A DNA stretch of 64,000 nt from Aedoeadaptatus nemausensis. GTDB lineage: Bacteria > Bacillota > Clostridia > Tissierellales > Peptoniphilaceae. The stretch covers positions 62,001 through 126,000 of the forward strand of contig NZ_CAIJCS010000016.1 in assembly GCF_903819165.1 (NCBI RefSeq). The letters are read 5' to 3'. The notes under the pieces were generated by a model. The model worked only from the letters and a program-made list of their open reading frames with translations, was not told the DNA's origin and searched no databases. Below, one piece after another: positions 9,080-34,996 of this stretch (position 1 is its first letter; the number at the start of each line of letters is the position of its first letter). A program made the position numbers and the translations under genes.

Positions 9080-10414
9080 GTGAACATCATTAGGGAATAT
9101 CAGTCAAAACTGACCACAGCTGAAAAAGCTGTAAAAGTTGTAAAAAGTGGCGACTGGATCGATTACGGCACGAATAATTCTTTTCCACACTTGCTGGATG
9201 AGGCATTAAGTGAACGAAGAGATGAATTAAAAGGCGTAAAAATTCGCGGAAATTTAATAGGGGGACCTTTAAAGACCGTCGAATCGGATCCGAATCGTGA
9301 ACATTTTATTTATAGTTCATGGCATTACTCAGCTTATGAACGTAAATTATCGGACAAAGGTTTATGTAATTATATTCCGATGATTTTCCGCAATGAATCT
9401 TGGTATATAAAGGAATTTCTCGATATCGACGTTGCCATGTTATCGGTTACACCTATGGATAAGCACGGTTACTTCAATCTTTCATGTGCTACGGGGATGG
9501 CCTACACAATTCTGGAAAAGGCGAAATATGTCATTTTAGAAGTAGTGGATAATCTCCCCTATGTATGCGGAGGACTTGAAAATGTCGTGCATATCTCGGA
9601 AGTGGATGCGGTGATCGAGGCGGGGGAACAACCCTTAATGTCTTTAAAATCACCTTCTCCCACGGAAAGGGATATGAAAATAGCCGAGCACATCCTTCCG
9701 CACATCGTCGATGGCGCGACGATTCAATTGGGTATCGGCGGTATGCCCAATGCCCTCGGAGGGCTCATTGCTAAAAGTGATTTGAAAGATTTGGGCATGC
9801 ACACGGAATTATGTTCCGATGCCTATTTGGATCTTCATCTCGCAGGGAAGTTGACAAACAAAAGAAAAAATACCGAGCGTGGCAAAGGGGTATTAGGAAT
9901 CCTGATCGGAAGCCAAAAGTTATACGATTGGGTCGATCATAACCCGTCCATAGCGGCCTATCCCCTCTGGTATGTCAACGATCCGGATGTTATGAGCCAA
10001 AACGACAATCTCATTTCCATTAACGGCTGTTTAAACGTAGATCTTTATGGGCAAATTTCCTCGGAAAGCTCCGGTACACGCCATATTTCGGGAACGGGAG
10101 GTCAATTGGATTTCGTTACCGGTGCGGCCATGAGTAAGGGCGGAAAATCCTTTATCTGCTTAAACTCCTCTTTCATCGATAAAAAAGGAGTGGAGCACTC
10201 CCAAATTTTGCCCACATTTAACGGCGATATTGTAACGACGCCGAGAAGCCAGGCTTATTATATCGTCACGGAATACGGTGCAGTCAATTTAGCCGGCCGA
10301 TCCACTTGGGAAAGAGCGGAAGCTTTAATCAGCATCGCACATCCTAAGTTCAGAGATGAATTAATAAAAAAAGCGGAGGAACAAAAAATTTGGGTTCCCT
10401 CCAACAAACGTTAA
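9080..10414 (+). CDS. Acetyl-CoA hydrolase/transferase-family CoA-transferase
   Basis: A 444-aa protein of the Cat1/AbfT-type family (4-hydroxybutyrate or butyryl-CoA:acetate CoA-transferases). The N-terminal half has the acetyl-CoA hydrolase fold. The C-terminal half carries [18 protein letters not shown] and [10 protein letters not shown], typical of these transferases. A GTG start (9080) is used with GGAGG 5 bp upstream. It lies 14 bp after iorB and ends at a strong terminator. The likely role is to exchange CoA from the aryl-acetyl-CoA made by IorAB to acetate, releasing the aryl acid. Substrate choice is inferred from the operon. Confidence 0.85.
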
Positions 10415-30782: not shown

Positions 30783-31559
30783 ATGGATAAATCCATGTTT
30801 GAAACGGCGCTGAGTCACCGCACCATTCGCGAATTTACCGAGGAAAAAGTCGATGAGGAACTGGTCGAGACATTGAAAAAGGTCGCCAATCGCACGGCTA
30901 CTTCCACGGGTATGCAGTCTTATTCCATTATTCGCATCGAAGATGAAAAGACCAGGAAAGCCATCGCCGAGATCGGCGGTCAGGAATACATTGCCCGGGC
31001 GCCCGAACTTTGGATTTTCATCGTGGATGTGTACCGCAACAGCCGCATTGCCAGAGAACAGGGCGTGGAGCTTGCCGCCGAGCGGGACGCCGATCGCTTT
31101 TTCCAAGGCTTTACCGACGCCGCCCTGGCTGCTCAAAATGTGACCAATGCCATTGAAGCGGCAGGCCTCGGCGCCGTCTATTTAGGGAGCATTTTAAATG
31201 ATGCGGAGGCCTTGATCGATCTTTTGGATCTTCCCGAGCTTACTTTCCCCGTGGTGGGTTTGGGCTTCGGTAAACCCAATCAATCCCCTCAGCTTAAGCC
31301 GAGAATGGATATGGAGCTTAAATTCTTCACCGATCGTTACCGGGAATTCGACAATTATATGGACATTATTGCCGACTACGATGAAGAAATGCAGACCTAT
31401 TACGATTTAAGAGAAGCCAATCGCCGAGTGGATTCTTTTTCCAAACAGGTGGTAACCCGTCTTGAAAATGCCACGGTCAATCGGGCGAATCTCGCGAAAA
31501 TTGCCGAAAAACAAGGCTTTAATTTACTGGGTGAGGAGAAAGACCATGCTGAATCTTAA
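30783..31559 (+). CDS. Nitroreductase-family NAD(P)H oxidoreductase (NfrA-like)
   Basis: A 258-aa FMN protein of the nitroreductase superfamily, NfsA/NfrA branch. SHRTIREFTEEKVDEELVE at residues 10-30 holds the FMN-binding Arg pair, and LPVVGLGFGKPN-like sequence (TFPVVGLGFGKPN) lies near residue 160. Members reduce flavins, nitroaromatics, disulfides or quinones with NADPH. It sits in a three-gene unit with two uncharacterised proteins; the following gene overlaps its end by 14 bp. Confidence 0.9.
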   Translation: MDKSMFETALSHRTIREFTEEKVDEELVETLKKVANRTATSTGMQSYSIIRIEDEKTRKAIAEIGGQEYIARAPELWIFIVDVYRNSRIAREQGVELAAERDADRFFQGFTDAALAAQNVTNAIEAAGLGAVYLGSILNDAEALIDLLDLPELTFPVVGLGFGKPNQSPQLKPRMDMELKFFTDRYREFDNYMDIIADYDEEMQTYYDLREANRRVDSFSKQVVTRLENATVNRANLAKIAEKQGFNLLGEEKDHAES

Positions 31560-31962
31560 AGAGGAAGGGAAAGAAGTTTCCATCGAGCTCTTGGAATACG
31601 AGTATCCCCCGGGATGGGGCGCCGGCATGCCCTATAATACGGACTATATTATCTGTAAGATCCTGGGGAAGGACGGCGACGACGATTTCGAGCTGGAAGA
31701 CAGTTTTTTCCGCTTTTCCGAAATCGAGTCTATTTATGAGAATTGCGTAGAAGTATTGGACGGCGACAGTTACGGTTTCGAGGCCGTCATAGAGAATCCG
31801 AACCTCGGTTTTTACGTGGAAATCGAAGACGATCTCTTGGCGGTTCATTTTCAAATGGCAGGGGACGATCTCTTCACCATTTCTGAGAAGATGAACCCGG
31901 TAGAGTTTCGGGAGATGGTGGATTCCATAGACGAAAGCCTCCGTTCCATCGCCGGTATTTGA
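31546..31962 (+). CDS. Uncharacterised 138-aa acidic protein
   Basis: ATG 31546 lies within the last codons of the nitroreductase gene and is preceded by GAGGAGA, so translation is probably coupled. The acidic product alternates beta-like strands (YIICKILG, GFYVEIEDDLLAVHFQM) and ends with a helix. The pattern is vaguely like WapI-type proteins, but I cannot assign it with confidence. Confidence 0.62.
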   Translation: MLNLKEEGKEVSIELLEYEYPPGWGAGMPYNTDYIICKILGKDGDDDFELEDSFFRFSEIESIYENCVEVLDGDSYGFEAVIENPNLGFYVEIEDDLLAVHFQMAGDDLFTISEKMNPVEFREMVDSIDESLRSIAGI

Positions 31963-31987
31963 CATGAGAAAGAAATAGATTAGAGTA

Positions 31988-32016
31988 TTGACCGATTCAA
32001 TAATTCATGTGATAAT
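31988..32016 (+). promoter_or_regulatory. Strong extended -10 promoter for a structured RNA
   Basis: TTGACC (31988-31993), a 17-bp spacer, and GATAAT (32011-32016) preceded by TGT, an extended -10. The start of transcription would be about 32022-32025, directly at the base of the first RNA stem. Confidence 0.8.
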
Positions 32017-32021
32017 GGATA

Positions 32022-32176
32022 CAATCGACGGAGCGCTATGCTCGCTTACTCCTAGCTATAAGTTTTTACTTAGAGTTATTTCTTACTTACTGTTGCTTAC
32101 CAAATATCGGAAGAGCATACCGTCGAGACGACATAAAGTCGCAAAGAAAGGTGACCCGGAGGTCATCTTTTTTTGT
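32022..32176 (+). ncRNA. Structured leader RNA or small RNA upstream of an MFS gene
   Basis: About 155 nt run from a strong promoter to an intrinsic terminator. TCGACGG (32025-32031) pairs with CCGTCGA (32120-32126). After a 5-nt bulge, TATGCTC (32037-32043) pairs with GAGCATA (32113-32119), giving 14 bp in one bulged helix. An apical hairpin is formed by TAGCT-A-TAAGT with ACTTA-G-AGTTA (32053-32078, TTTT loop). CTTAC occurs four times in the otherwise unpaired parts (32045, 32082, 32086, 32096). A CGAC/GTCG stem precedes the terminator. The MFS ribosome site lies after the terminator, so it may be a riboswitch-like attenuator; a free small RNA is also possible. I cannot match it to a known class. 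Confidence 0.65.
32148..32175 (+). terminator. Terminator between structured RNA and MFS gene
   Basis: AAGGTGACC/GGTCATCTT stem with a CGGA loop and seven T. It lies between the folded leader and the ribosome site AAAGGAG of the MFS gene. Confidence 0.88.
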
Positions 32177-32197
32177 GGGCACTAAAAAGGAGTTTTT

Positions 32198-33352
32198 ATG
32201 AAACGCAGAGATTACATTACCGCCTTGGCCCTCTATATTACCTATTTCGTTCACGGCATCGGCGTATCCATCCTTTCCCAGTACAAGGAATCCCTGGCAG
32301 GGGCCTGGCAGGCGCCGGGCATCGCCACGGTACTCCAGGTTATTGCCGCTCTGGGCCTCGGGCGCCTCGTGGCCCTTCCCATATCGGGCTATGTATCCGA
32401 CCGATTCGGGCGAAAGGCATCCGGGCTTATCGGCATTCTCTTTTACGCGGTTTACTTTTTCGGTATTGCCGTGACATCCTCGTCTAAAATGGCCTACGGT
32501 CTCGCCATTTTCGGCGGCATCGCCAACTCCTTTTTAGATACCTGCGTCACGCCGACGATCCTCGAGATGTTCGGGGAAAAAGGCGGCACCGCCAATATGT
32601 TTACGAAATTTTCCATGTCCATCGGTCAGTTTCTCCTGCCCTTTATGATCGGAGCGGCCACGACCATGGCTCTTTCCTATCGCGCCCTCTTTTACTTAAT
32701 GGGCGGGCTTATCGCCCTCGACGGCATTCTCATCGCTTTCCTTCCCTTCCCGAAGACGAAAAAGGAAGGGGACCATGTGGCCGCGCCCTTTGCCCTGAAA
32801 AAAGAAGCTCTTCCCGCCATCCTTATGGGCTTTACCGCCACCGCCACCTTTATTTTGTGGCTCAACTGCAATCAGGAGTTGGGCGCCCTTTACGGCATGG
32901 CGGATCCGTCGAAGATCCAATCCTTTTACGCACTGGGTACCATCGTGGCGATTTTAGCTACGGCCTTCATTGTGCTGAAAAAATGGAGCACGGAAGATGT
33001 TTTAATCGCCTATCCCGGGATTTCCCTTCTGGCCCTCATAGGGGTTTACTTTATAAAGACCCCCTTGGCCGCCGTGGTGGCGGGCTTTCTCATCGGATAC
33101 GGCGGCGCCGGCGGCGTTTTGCAGTTAGTGGTGGCCGAAGCCAACAGCTATTATCCGGATCATAAGGGAAAAATTACATCGGTGGTTATGATCGCGTCAT
33201 CCATCGCCAATTACGTGGTCCTCGCCCTTGCGGGAAAACTCACCGCCCTCTCCGGCGTCGATGCCCCGCGCTATGTATTGGTTTTAAATATGGTTATTAC
33301 GCTGGCGAGCGTCATCCTCGCCCTTCAACTGAAGCGCCAAAAAAGAGCATAA
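32198..33352 (+). CDS. MFS transporter
   Basis: A 384-aa major facilitator protein with about twelve helices. The signature loop between helices 2 and 3 is SGYVSDRFGRKASG, and a matching loop is weak in the second half. The helix-8/9 region has LKKWSTEDVLIAYPG. The substrate cannot be told. AAAGGAG precedes ATG 32198. It is the only gene downstream of the structured leader and terminator at 32022-32175, so its expression is probably controlled by read-through. A bidirectional terminator separates it from the convergent Fur-family gene. Confidence 0.88.
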   Translation: MKRRDYITALALYITYFVHGIGVSILSQYKESLAGAWQAPGIATVLQVIAALGLGRLVALPISGYVSDRFGRKASGLIGILFYAVYFFGIAVTSSSKMAYGLAIFGGIANSFLDTCVTPTILEMFGEKGGTANMFTKFSMSIGQFLLPFMIGAATTMALSYRALFYLMGGLIALDGILIAFLPFPKTKKEGDHVAAPFALKKEALPAILMGFTATATFILWLNCNQELGALYGMADPSKIQSFYALGTIVAILATAFIVLKKWSTEDVLIAYPGISLLALIGVYFIKTPLAAVVAGFLIGYGGAGGVLQLVVAEANSYYPDHKGKITSVVMIASSIANYVVLALAGKLTALSGVDAPRYVLVLNMVITLASVILALQLKRQKRA

Positions 33353-33377: not shown

Positions 33378-33785
33378 TTACTTCTTATTCAAGCAATCGG
33401 GGCAAATCCCTTCCAGCTGAAAACTGTGGCCTGTAATGGCGTAGCCCGTGGATTTGGCGATGTGATCGTCTAAATCCTTCAGAGGACAGTTGTGAATGGG
33501 CGTAAATTTGCCGCATTTCGAGCAGACGATGTAGTGATTGTGTTCTTCATTATGGTATTCATAATAAGTAACGTCCTCTTGTTGAACCGAGGCCTCCAAA
33601 AGGCCGATTTCCGTCAATTGATTTAAAATACGATAGACCGTGGAAAGAGAAGCGGTGGTCTCGTCTTTTATAGCATTGTAAACATCCAGGGCGCACATGG
33701 GAACATGGGCGCCTTTTAAAATGTCGATGACAGCCAACCGCCCCTTGGTAGCTTTCAATCCATATTGTCGTAAAATAGTTTCCAT
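33378..33785 (-). CDS. Fur-family metalloregulator, probably Zur
   Basis: A 135-aa Fur-superfamily repressor. The winged helix covers residues 1-80 (LKATKGRLAVIDIL and STVYRILNQLTEIGLLE). The C-terminal part has the metal sites HNEEHNHYIVCSKCGKF and ICPDC, giving two CxxC pairs for structural zinc. It is transcribed divergently from a zinc ABC transporter operon, and inverted AATCGTT elements lie in the shared region, so a zinc-sensing role is the best inference. PerR or Fur function is not excluded. Confidence 0.85.
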   Translation of the reverse strand: METILRQYGLKATKGRLAVIDILKGAHVPMCALDVYNAIKDETTASLSTVYRILNQLTEIGLLEASVQQEDVTYYEYHNEEHNHYIVCSKCGKFTPIHNCPLKDLDDHIAKSTGYAITGHSFQLEGICPDCLNKK

Positions 33786-33931: not shown

Positions 33932-34996
33932 ATGAAATTGAAAAAAATCGCCGTGGCGGCTTGCGCCCTGGCACTTTTAACGGCATGCGGTAAAAATCAA
34001 AATGCCAATGTAGAAAATACTGCTGCTAATCAAGCGGCGGTGGAAGACAAGGTAGAAAACAAGAGAGAAGACGGCCTGAACATCGTCACCTCCACCTACA
34101 TCACCCGGGATTTGGCACAAGAAATCGCAGGCGATTCCGGAACGGTTACCTGCTTGATTCCCAAGGGCCAAGGGGTTCACGGTTTCGAACCTTCTCCCAA
34201 GGATATGAATATGTTAAAAGAGGCGGATCTCTTTATTTATAACGGCGCCGGCTTGGAATCCTGGGTCGACACGGTGAAAGACACTATGGGAGAAGACGGA
34301 GCAGCTGTGGAAGCATCGGAAGGTATCGAACTCTTAGCCGGCGGCCATCACCACCACCACGACGGGGAAGAGGCTCACGACCACGATCATGACGCGGATG
34401 AGCACGATCACGATCATGACCACGATGCCGCCGAACACGATCACGATCACGACCACGATGCAGCGGAACACGACCACGATCACGACCACGGCGGGAAAGA
34501 TCCCCACGTCTGGATGTCGGTTCAAAACGCAAAGCAAATGGCACAAAATATCGCCGATGCTATGATCAAACAAGATCCGGGTAACAAGGCAAATTACGAG
34601 GCCAATCTCGCCGAGCTCAACAAAAAATTAGATTCCCTCGACAGTTCCTTTAAAGAAACCTTGGCAAAAGCTAATACTAAGGACATTGTCGTAAGCCACG
34701 AAGCCTACGGCTACCTTGCCAAGGAATACGGTCTGCATCAAATTCCCATCGAAGGCATTAATTCCGAAAGCGAACCGGATCCCAAGGCCATGAAGGAAAT
34801 TATCGAGCTTATGAAGGAAAAAAACATTAAAACGGTCTTTACGGAACCGAATGAAGATGATAAAATCGCACAAACCATCGCATCGGAAACCGGGGCGGAA
34901 GTTAAAGAATTGGATCCCCTGGAATACGAAAGCGATCAAAACTATATTGAACGCATGGAAAACAATCTGAAAGTATTGGAGTCGGCATTAGAATGA
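33932..34996 (+). CDS. znuA: Zinc ABC transporter substrate-binding lipoprotein
   Basis: The 354-aa lipoprotein has a basic start, hydrophobic core and lipobox LLTACG with Cys at residue 20. The cluster A-I fold includes IVTSTYITRDLAQEI, the metal ligand His in GVHGFEPSP, and later VSHEAYGYLAKEYGL and VFTEPNEDD. Between residues 137 and 190 a His/Asp-rich loop contains dozens of metal-binding residues arranged in 11-residue repeats (AAEHDHDHDHD). It captures Zn2+ outside the membrane for ZnuB/ZnuC. AGGAGG precedes ATG 33932, and the stop overlaps the ATPase start. Confidence 0.95.
   Translation: MKLKKIAVAACALALLTACGKNQNANVENTAANQAAVEDKVENKREDGLNIVTSTYITRDLAQEIAGDSGTVTCLIPKGQGVHGFEPSPKDMNMLKEADLFIYNGAGLESWVDTVKDTMGEDGAAVEASEGIELLAGGHHHHHDGEEAHDHDHDADEHDHDHDHDAAEHDHDHDHDAAEHDHDHDHGGKDPHVWMSVQNAKQMAQNIADAMIKQDPGNKANYEANLAELNKKLDSLDSSFKETLAKANTKDIVVSHEAYGYLAKEYGLHQIPIEGINSESEPDPKAMKEIIELMKEKNIKTVFTEPNEDDKIAQTIASETGAEVKELDPLEYESDQNYIERMENNLKVLESALE
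34376..34493 (+). repeat. Tandem coding repeat for the His/Asp loop of ZnuA
   Basis: About three imperfect 33-bp units built of GAT/GAC and CAC/CAT codons encode the histidine-rich loop. Unit number could vary by slippage between strains. Confidence 0.75.

Follow-up and report, generated by a model that had tools for sequence, protein, structure and literature searches.

A strongly conserved structured leader RNA upstream of an MFS transporter gene in Aedoeadaptatus

The stretch of 64,000 nucleotides of the Aedoeadaptatus nemausensis genome analyzed here (the window) contains a real, strongly conserved structured RNA that is restricted to its genus and absent from Rfam. A promoter, an RNA of about 151 nt, an intrinsic terminator and the gene for an MFS transporter form one compact unit on the forward strand, at 31988-32197 and onward. 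The RNA itself (32024-32174) is flanked upstream by a small WapI-like gene (31546-31962) and downstream by the MFS gene (32198-33352), whose start codon is located 23 nt past the end of the RNA at 32174. The unit, its conservation, a modest covariation and the linkage to the MFS gene can be read directly from the sequences. With middling confidence, the element is interpreted here as a genus-specific 5' leader of the MFS gene that would function as a transcription attenuator, its loop binding a factor.

A sequence-only reading of the locus had proposed a structured RNA of no catalogued family, with its own promoter and with a terminator just before the transporter gene, and the present analysis supports that description. 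The reading had suggested an Rfam search as a check on calling the RNA unclassified. In a scan with Rfam 15, no family reached its gathering threshold at this position, and only two tRNAs were recovered in the whole window; the best weak match of the RNA was to STnc250, at 17.7 bits (E 0.31), where the gathering score is 42. The titles and abstract openings of the literature on Peptoniphilus riboswitches and Aedoeadaptatus RNA do not mention the leader.

Promoter, fold and terminator

The promoter is of the TTGACC / TG-n-ATAAT type (31988-32016), with TTGACC separated by 17 nt from GATAAT and a TG preceding the -10. Taken by itself, the promoter scan was at the level of chance, with three promoter-like sites in 1 kb compared to a shuffle mean of 1.3. 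However, the -10 block, TTCATGnnATAAT (32004-32016), is identical in all eight copies of the leader, and the -35 TTGAC is present in seven, the copy of genome G003 being the exception. The extended -10 promoter proposed from the sequence is thus credible because it is conserved among the copies. The invariance of the block exceeds what an extended -10 needs, and no second copy of it, with at most one mismatch allowed, was found in the window. From the position of the promoter, transcription would be expected to start at the base of helix P1.

The predicted 158-nt fold has an energy of -49.1 kcal/mol, where shuffles average -35.6 (z = -3.91), and none of 200 shuffles was equally stable. The domain is closed by a bulged helix composed of P1 (7 bp, 32025-32031 with 32120-32126) and P2 (6 bp, 32038-32043 with 32113-32118). 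The bulged helix had been described from the sequence as having 14 pairs; the helix exists, but its two parts amount to 13 pairs. P1 is indicated by the alignment, by covariation and by the single-sequence folds, being strong in all eight of them with a mean pair probability of 0.91-0.99. In the eight-copy alignment 100% of its cells are paired, and one of its pairs has a two-sided change. P2, with two such pairs, is part of the minimum-energy fold of only four of the eight copies, the window copy (probability 0.32) not among them, and its pair probability is 0.05 in G002 and 0.01 in G005. Therefore, P2 rests on the alignment. The inner 10-bp hairpin that had also been noticed, P3, was located at 32053-32078 in seven of the eight copies. 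Because it never varies among these seven and is absent by deletion in G007, it says little for or against the structure. Past P1, the small hairpin P4 (32127-32142, CGAC AUAAA GUCG) lies in a region that is 54% identical between copies; nonetheless, it forms in all eight isolated folds, and an exchange between A-U and G-C on both sides could be read by eye.

For the model as a whole, 99.3% of the cells are paired in the eight copies. The helices contain seven cells with pair-keeping changes on both sides, compared to a shuffle mean of 2.5 and with none of 500 shuffles as high, and six slid controls contained no two-sided changes. The three pairs with a two-sided change were equalled by 124 of the 500 shuffles and the six further pair types by 370. 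Because the shuffles often reach these pair counts and because there are eight sequences, the covariation is supportive but thin. A lack of conservation or covariation in relatives had been set beforehand as grounds for giving up the proposal; the leader is conserved and its helices do covary, if thinly.

The intrinsic terminator had been placed just before the ribosome binding site of the transporter gene (AAGGAG, 32187-32192), and this is borne out by the fold and by the copies, the sequence and fold giving a hairpin with a U-run at about 32143-32174. A simple terminator scan did not report this hairpin on the forward strand, probably because the U-run pairs into the stem. In all eight copies the U-run is followed after 20-28 nt by the MFS start codon (21 nt in G001, where the start is the ATG at 1692), and none of the eight genomes has space for a promoter between the terminator and the MFS start. 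The MFS gene would therefore depend on read-through, either from this promoter or from one further upstream.

Pairing of the 5' arm of the terminator was checked in the eight copies, with nested canonical pairs, after removal of the 3' arm. No antiterminator conserved across the eight was found, and the 5' arm was unpaired in six of them, counting G006 and G004, in which a single edge base was paired. In the window copy (G000, 32115-32158) and in G007, the 5' arm was predicted, once the 3' arm was removed, to pair with the 3' strand of P4. This pairing could be an antiterminator, one not common to the other six copies. The lack of a conserved antiterminator counts against a classical riboswitch.

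Conserved loops, neighboring genes and occurrence in relatives

Four CUUAC motifs are found at 32045, 32082, 32086 and 32096. The repeats, which had been noted in the sequence-only reading, are not explained by composition, since none of 2000 dinucleotide shuffles reached four, and no other such cluster occurs in the window on either strand. In a less selective control, some pentamer occurred four times in 34 of the 2000 shuffles. The motifs fall into two loop segments. Segment A (CUUACUCCUAG, 32045-32055) does not vary in any of its 10 ungapped columns in the eight-copy alignment, with one gapped column dropped where G001 lacks one U. Segment B (32076-32110), which includes UUUCUUACUUACUGUUGCUUACCAAA at 32079-32104, is invariant in 33 of 34 ungapped columns, likewise with one gapped column dropped. 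By comparison, identity in the MFS gene is 57.6% at 93 four-fold sites and 53.5% at third codon positions. The mean unpaired probability of the 26-nt core of segment B is 0.66-0.76, compared to 0.25-0.34 for the rest of the RNA. Based on these predictions, the most conserved part of the RNA appears to be mostly unpaired, and it is pyrimidine-rich. In G001, the one-base deletion in CUUACUCCUAG accompanies a long open frame running from the RNA into the MFS gene (an ORF of 453 amino acids), which is likely accidental.

The only family above its cut-off for the transporter is PF07690 (MFS_1, 96.1 bits). No NCBIfam model exceeded its cut-off, and no solved structure matched the protein by sequence at E 0.001. 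Because only a general family was matched and no structure, the substrate offers no clue to a ligand. Matches to the protein occur in 15 of 101 genomes, seven of them outside the genus. The closest two relatives from two other genera are those of G013 (60% identity) and G039 (46%), and neither the leader RNA nor CUUAC was found in the 300 nt before these genes. G013 possesses a different terminator-like hairpin just after the preceding gene, about 250-270 nt before the MFS gene. Upstream of the leader, the small gene at 31546-31962 matches the Pfam WapI immunity-like family with 38.1 bits (cut-off 27), and from the lists of open reading frames, compared by eye, a homologous small frame occupies the same place in eight genomes of the genus. 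Since this gene is conserved as well, the linkage of the RNA to the MFS gene is weaker evidence than it appears. Further downstream lie a gene on the opposite strand that we take to encode a Fur-type regulator (33378-33785) and, adjoining it, a gene presumably for a metal-binding ABC substrate-binding protein (33932-34996) with a long stretch rich in His, Asp and Glu.

Exactly one copy of the leader was found in each of the eight Aedoeadaptatus genomes examined, that of the window included (R1, a covariance model of the core; E 5.1e-19 or better), and all eight copies lie directly before the same MFS gene. The nearest relative among these genomes is A. coxii (G001), with 88% identity over the leader and 87% over the MFS protein. 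A DNA search of 101 genomes, including the source genome, matched nine. Eight belonged to the genus and matched along most of the query; the ninth, G008, matched just 42 bases of the terminator part. Among 130 genomes of the family, R1 recovered the eight genus copies and four weak matches in three further genomes (E 0.1); among 249 genomes of the order, nine were matched at E 0.01, the same eight and one of those with a weak match. In both searches stricter filters were used, with which some weak matches are lost. The weak matches in G053, G013 and G045 (two) scored 21.8-29.3 bits (E 0.0017-0.096) and were taken as chance. Each is contained entirely in an open frame of at least 345 codons on one strand, and in none is the loop-B motif intact. 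Seven loci with MFS relatives (L037-L043) were also searched, L044 being excluded as another piece of the L039 gene, and the matches obtained at L043 (19.3 bits, E 0.0089) and L040 (15.2 bits, E 0.1) were likewise taken as chance.

An exact 19-mer of loop B had seven matches in public contigs, with one genome per species, and none in viral contigs. The carriers, which appear to be the genomes G001-G007, were A. coli, A. coxii, A. urinae, A. ivorii, A. pacaensis, Peptoniphilus rachelemmaiella and one Bacillota MAG. Several of these anaerobes are known from human samples. Overall, no convincing copy outside the genus was found in the genomes of the family and order, the public and viral contigs or the loci of the MFS relatives.

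Complementary sites for the conserved loops

The sequence-only reading had further suggested that the CUUAC repeats pair with mRNA leaders containing GUAAG. The counts did not support this suggestion. In the window, GGTAAG occurs 26 times where 23.9 are expected, and GGAGTAAG, one mismatch allowed, 37 times where 39.1 are expected, so that both are at the frequency of chance; counts at the gene starts of two relatives are near expectation save for exact GGAGTAAG in one of the two. The start regions were taken from a simple gene caller and numbered 1471 in G007 and 1076 in G004, the latter from 1.2 of 1.85 Mb. Summed over the loops and compared to a Markov expectation, complementary 6-mers numbered 528 against 461.9 in G007 and 419 against 398.1 in G004; 7-mers 106 against 96.0 and 79 against 84.2; and 8-mers 25 against 19.9 and 19 against 15.7. 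TAGGAG was in excess in both genomes (122 against 78.2 and 71 against 42.8), probably because a stop codon lies next to a Shine-Dalgarno site. Exact GGAGTAAG (5 against 1.8 expected), GTAAGAAA (5 against 1.7) and AAGAAAC were slightly in excess at the starts of G007 and CTAGGAG (6 against 2.4) at those of G004, and none of these four excesses was common to both genomes. The particular target named in that reading, a CoA-transferase gene at 9080, carries GGAGGTAAGC in the window, but the motif is missing at three starts matched by tblastn in two relatives (44-49% identical and possibly paralogues).

Orthologous starts were compared as well. For duplex energies over 555 orthologue pairs, 29 of 40 shuffles were equal to or better than segment B by the mean of the top ten, and 6 of 40 were equal to or better than segment A (3 of 40 for the best pair). 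Segment A shared 36 6-mers between orthologues compared to a shuffle mean of 11.0, with 15 of 200 shuffles reaching 36, and two 7-mers, a number reached by 43 of 200 shuffles; segment B shared seven 7-mers compared to a shuffle mean of 10.9. There may thus be a weak, unproven hint that segment A pairs with Shine-Dalgarno sites, and none for segment B. Pairing of loop A with the ribosome site of the MFS gene itself was also considered. By eye, AGGAG is present in G000, G001, G003 and G007 and is replaced by GAGGTGAT in the other four; because just four copies have AGGAG, such a pairing is not conserved.

Long complementary runs were no more frequent than in shuffles in G007, somewhat more frequent in G004, and yielded no convincing site. 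Runs of at least 14 nt with loop B numbered 43 in G004, compared to 10-38 in eight shuffles. Runs of 16 nt numbered five in G007, including the gene itself (1-11 in eight shuffles), and nine in G004, of which one was the gene itself and four were one repeated sequence (0-8 in eight shuffles). One G-U-rich match of 16 nt was shared by G007 and G004 at the start of a gene beginning MLMPKRVKYR, which we take to be rplP-like, where it spans the ribosome site (L126 7438, reverse strand; L184 15880, forward strand). By eye it may overlap the end of an upstream gene that is conserved, and the complementarity is probably due to chance. In the eight genomes, a loop-B 16-mer with at most two mismatches had four sites besides the gene, compared to 10 for a reversed control pattern. 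A 14/16 match present in both G004 and G005, and found in none of the remaining six genomes, falls at an open frame's end and was discarded.

Overall, the search for trans targets in two relatives gave no consistent signal and no conserved target site, with a few small excesses; it would miss a regulator that has few targets. A global GUAAG regulon is not supported, as starts, duplex energies, shared seeds and window counts give no consistent signal for it.

Possible functions and comparison with known systems

From this arrangement we infer how transcription, termination and regulation would proceed and what kind of factor would be involved. Transcription would start at the base of P1, and the RNA would fold into a domain closed by P1 and P2 that displays the fixed pyrimidine-rich loop, followed by hairpin P4. 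Most transcripts would stop at the terminator, leaving an RNA of about 150 nt, and the MFS gene would be expressed via read-through from the leader promoter or from further upstream. A factor recognizing the loop, which might be a ligand, a protein, an RNA or the elongating polymerase, would set the level of read-through. A broader proposal, and a rather doubtful one at present, is that the leader represents a genus-restricted RNA class in which binding of a ligand, protein or polymerase to a loop of about 35 nt changes adjacent read-through without a classical antiterminator.

An attenuator leader is favored over an RNA acting in trans, and both may apply to one molecule. The latter, a possible though less probable reading, holds that the RNA acts as a small RNA or titrates an RNA-binding protein as a sponge, that the CUUAC-rich loop is its seed or binding site and that the MFS gene lives on read-through. 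A self-contained unit of promoter, RNA and terminator with an exposed, conserved putative seed, as expected of a small RNA, is present by sequence. The near-invariant, mostly unpaired loop fits a small RNA no worse than it fits an aptamer, and the fourfold motif, the lack of a conserved antiterminator and the small excesses of complementary sites (GGAGTAAG, GTAAGAAA, CTAGGAG, segment A 6-mers, long runs in G004) point the same way. There is also a precedent in E. coli, where short RNAs ended in 5' UTRs, ChiZ and IspZ, are reported to act as sponges of small RNAs (PMC7815308). However, the excesses differ between the two genomes and the loop k-mer sums are near expectation, segment B does no better than shuffles in duplexes and shared seeds, the loop-B 16-mer has fewer sites than its control, and the RNA is always linked to the MFS gene.

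The remaining explanations appear much less probable. Some antibiotic-induced efflux genes are controlled by ribosome-mediated attenuation via an upstream ORF, and it is conceivable, if unlikely, that a frame of five codons serves here, with an ATG or GTG in P2 and ending in TAC TCC TAG. By eye, the start shares its frame with the invariant TAC TCC TAG in seven of eight copies and is preceded within a few nucleotides by GGA or GGG. Nevertheless, the one-base deletion in G001 breaks the frame, the copies differ by non-synonymous changes (L/P, A/T), most of the variable positions lie in P2, conservation continues past the stop codon, and no conserved antiterminator was found. A conserved coding frame is therefore not what is seen, and no literature on leader-peptide attenuation of MFS efflux was found. 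A further reading, in which the conserved block acts as a DNA operator downstream of the promoter and the RNA fold is secondary, is highly improbable. Read from the opposite strand, CUUAC does give direct GTAAG repeats, and the promoter holds an invariant TTCATG block, but the two-sided changes in P1 and P2 and the retention of P4 at 54% identity point to selection acting on RNA. Moreover, the block 16-mer (two mismatches, eight genomes) has no further genus-conserved copy, and the promoter block occurs only once in the window. Least probable of all is an ordinary, constitutive partial terminator in a non-functional leader, which has in its favor the lack of an identified factor and nothing else, against a nearly invariant loop, compared to an identity of 57.6% at four-fold sites of the MFS gene.

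What the locus offers is an RNA family, not represented in Rfam 15, whose conservation is strong and whose loop is unusually rigid. If the control of read-through proposed for the attenuator leader is true, it would add a type of leader without a conserved antiterminator and would point to the substrate of an uncharacterized MFS transporter.

As in transcription-attenuating riboswitch leaders, a promoter is followed by a conserved folded domain closed by P1, a terminator and, tens of nucleotides on, a transporter gene, and the domain covaries modestly, with three pairs in eight genomes. In contrast to such leaders, no antiterminator is conserved across the eight copies, and the best-conserved part is long, mostly unpaired and pyrimidine-rich, with no Rfam match at threshold. 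Processive antitermination RNAs include HK022 put, EAR and the LoaP-associated RNA, of which EAR and put act at distant terminators. Like these, the leader would be a cis RNA domain needing no pairing with the terminator; unlike them, it has no Rfam match, in a scan that covers only those that are Rfam families. A boxA-like loop was also considered and rejected, CTTAC being present in none of six rRNA leaders (260 nt each, two relatives). RsaE is a Gram-positive small RNA with C-rich single-stranded seeds, and the conserved, unpaired pyrimidine motifs of the leader, one of them with CUCC, resemble such seeds. The leader differs from this type in having no Rfam match at threshold and in that complementary sites at start codons are not consistently enriched beyond TAGGAG. 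Finally, whereas no partner RNA was found for the leader, it resembles ChiZ and IspZ as a short RNA that would end early in a 5' UTR and possibly has a function of its own (PMC7815308).
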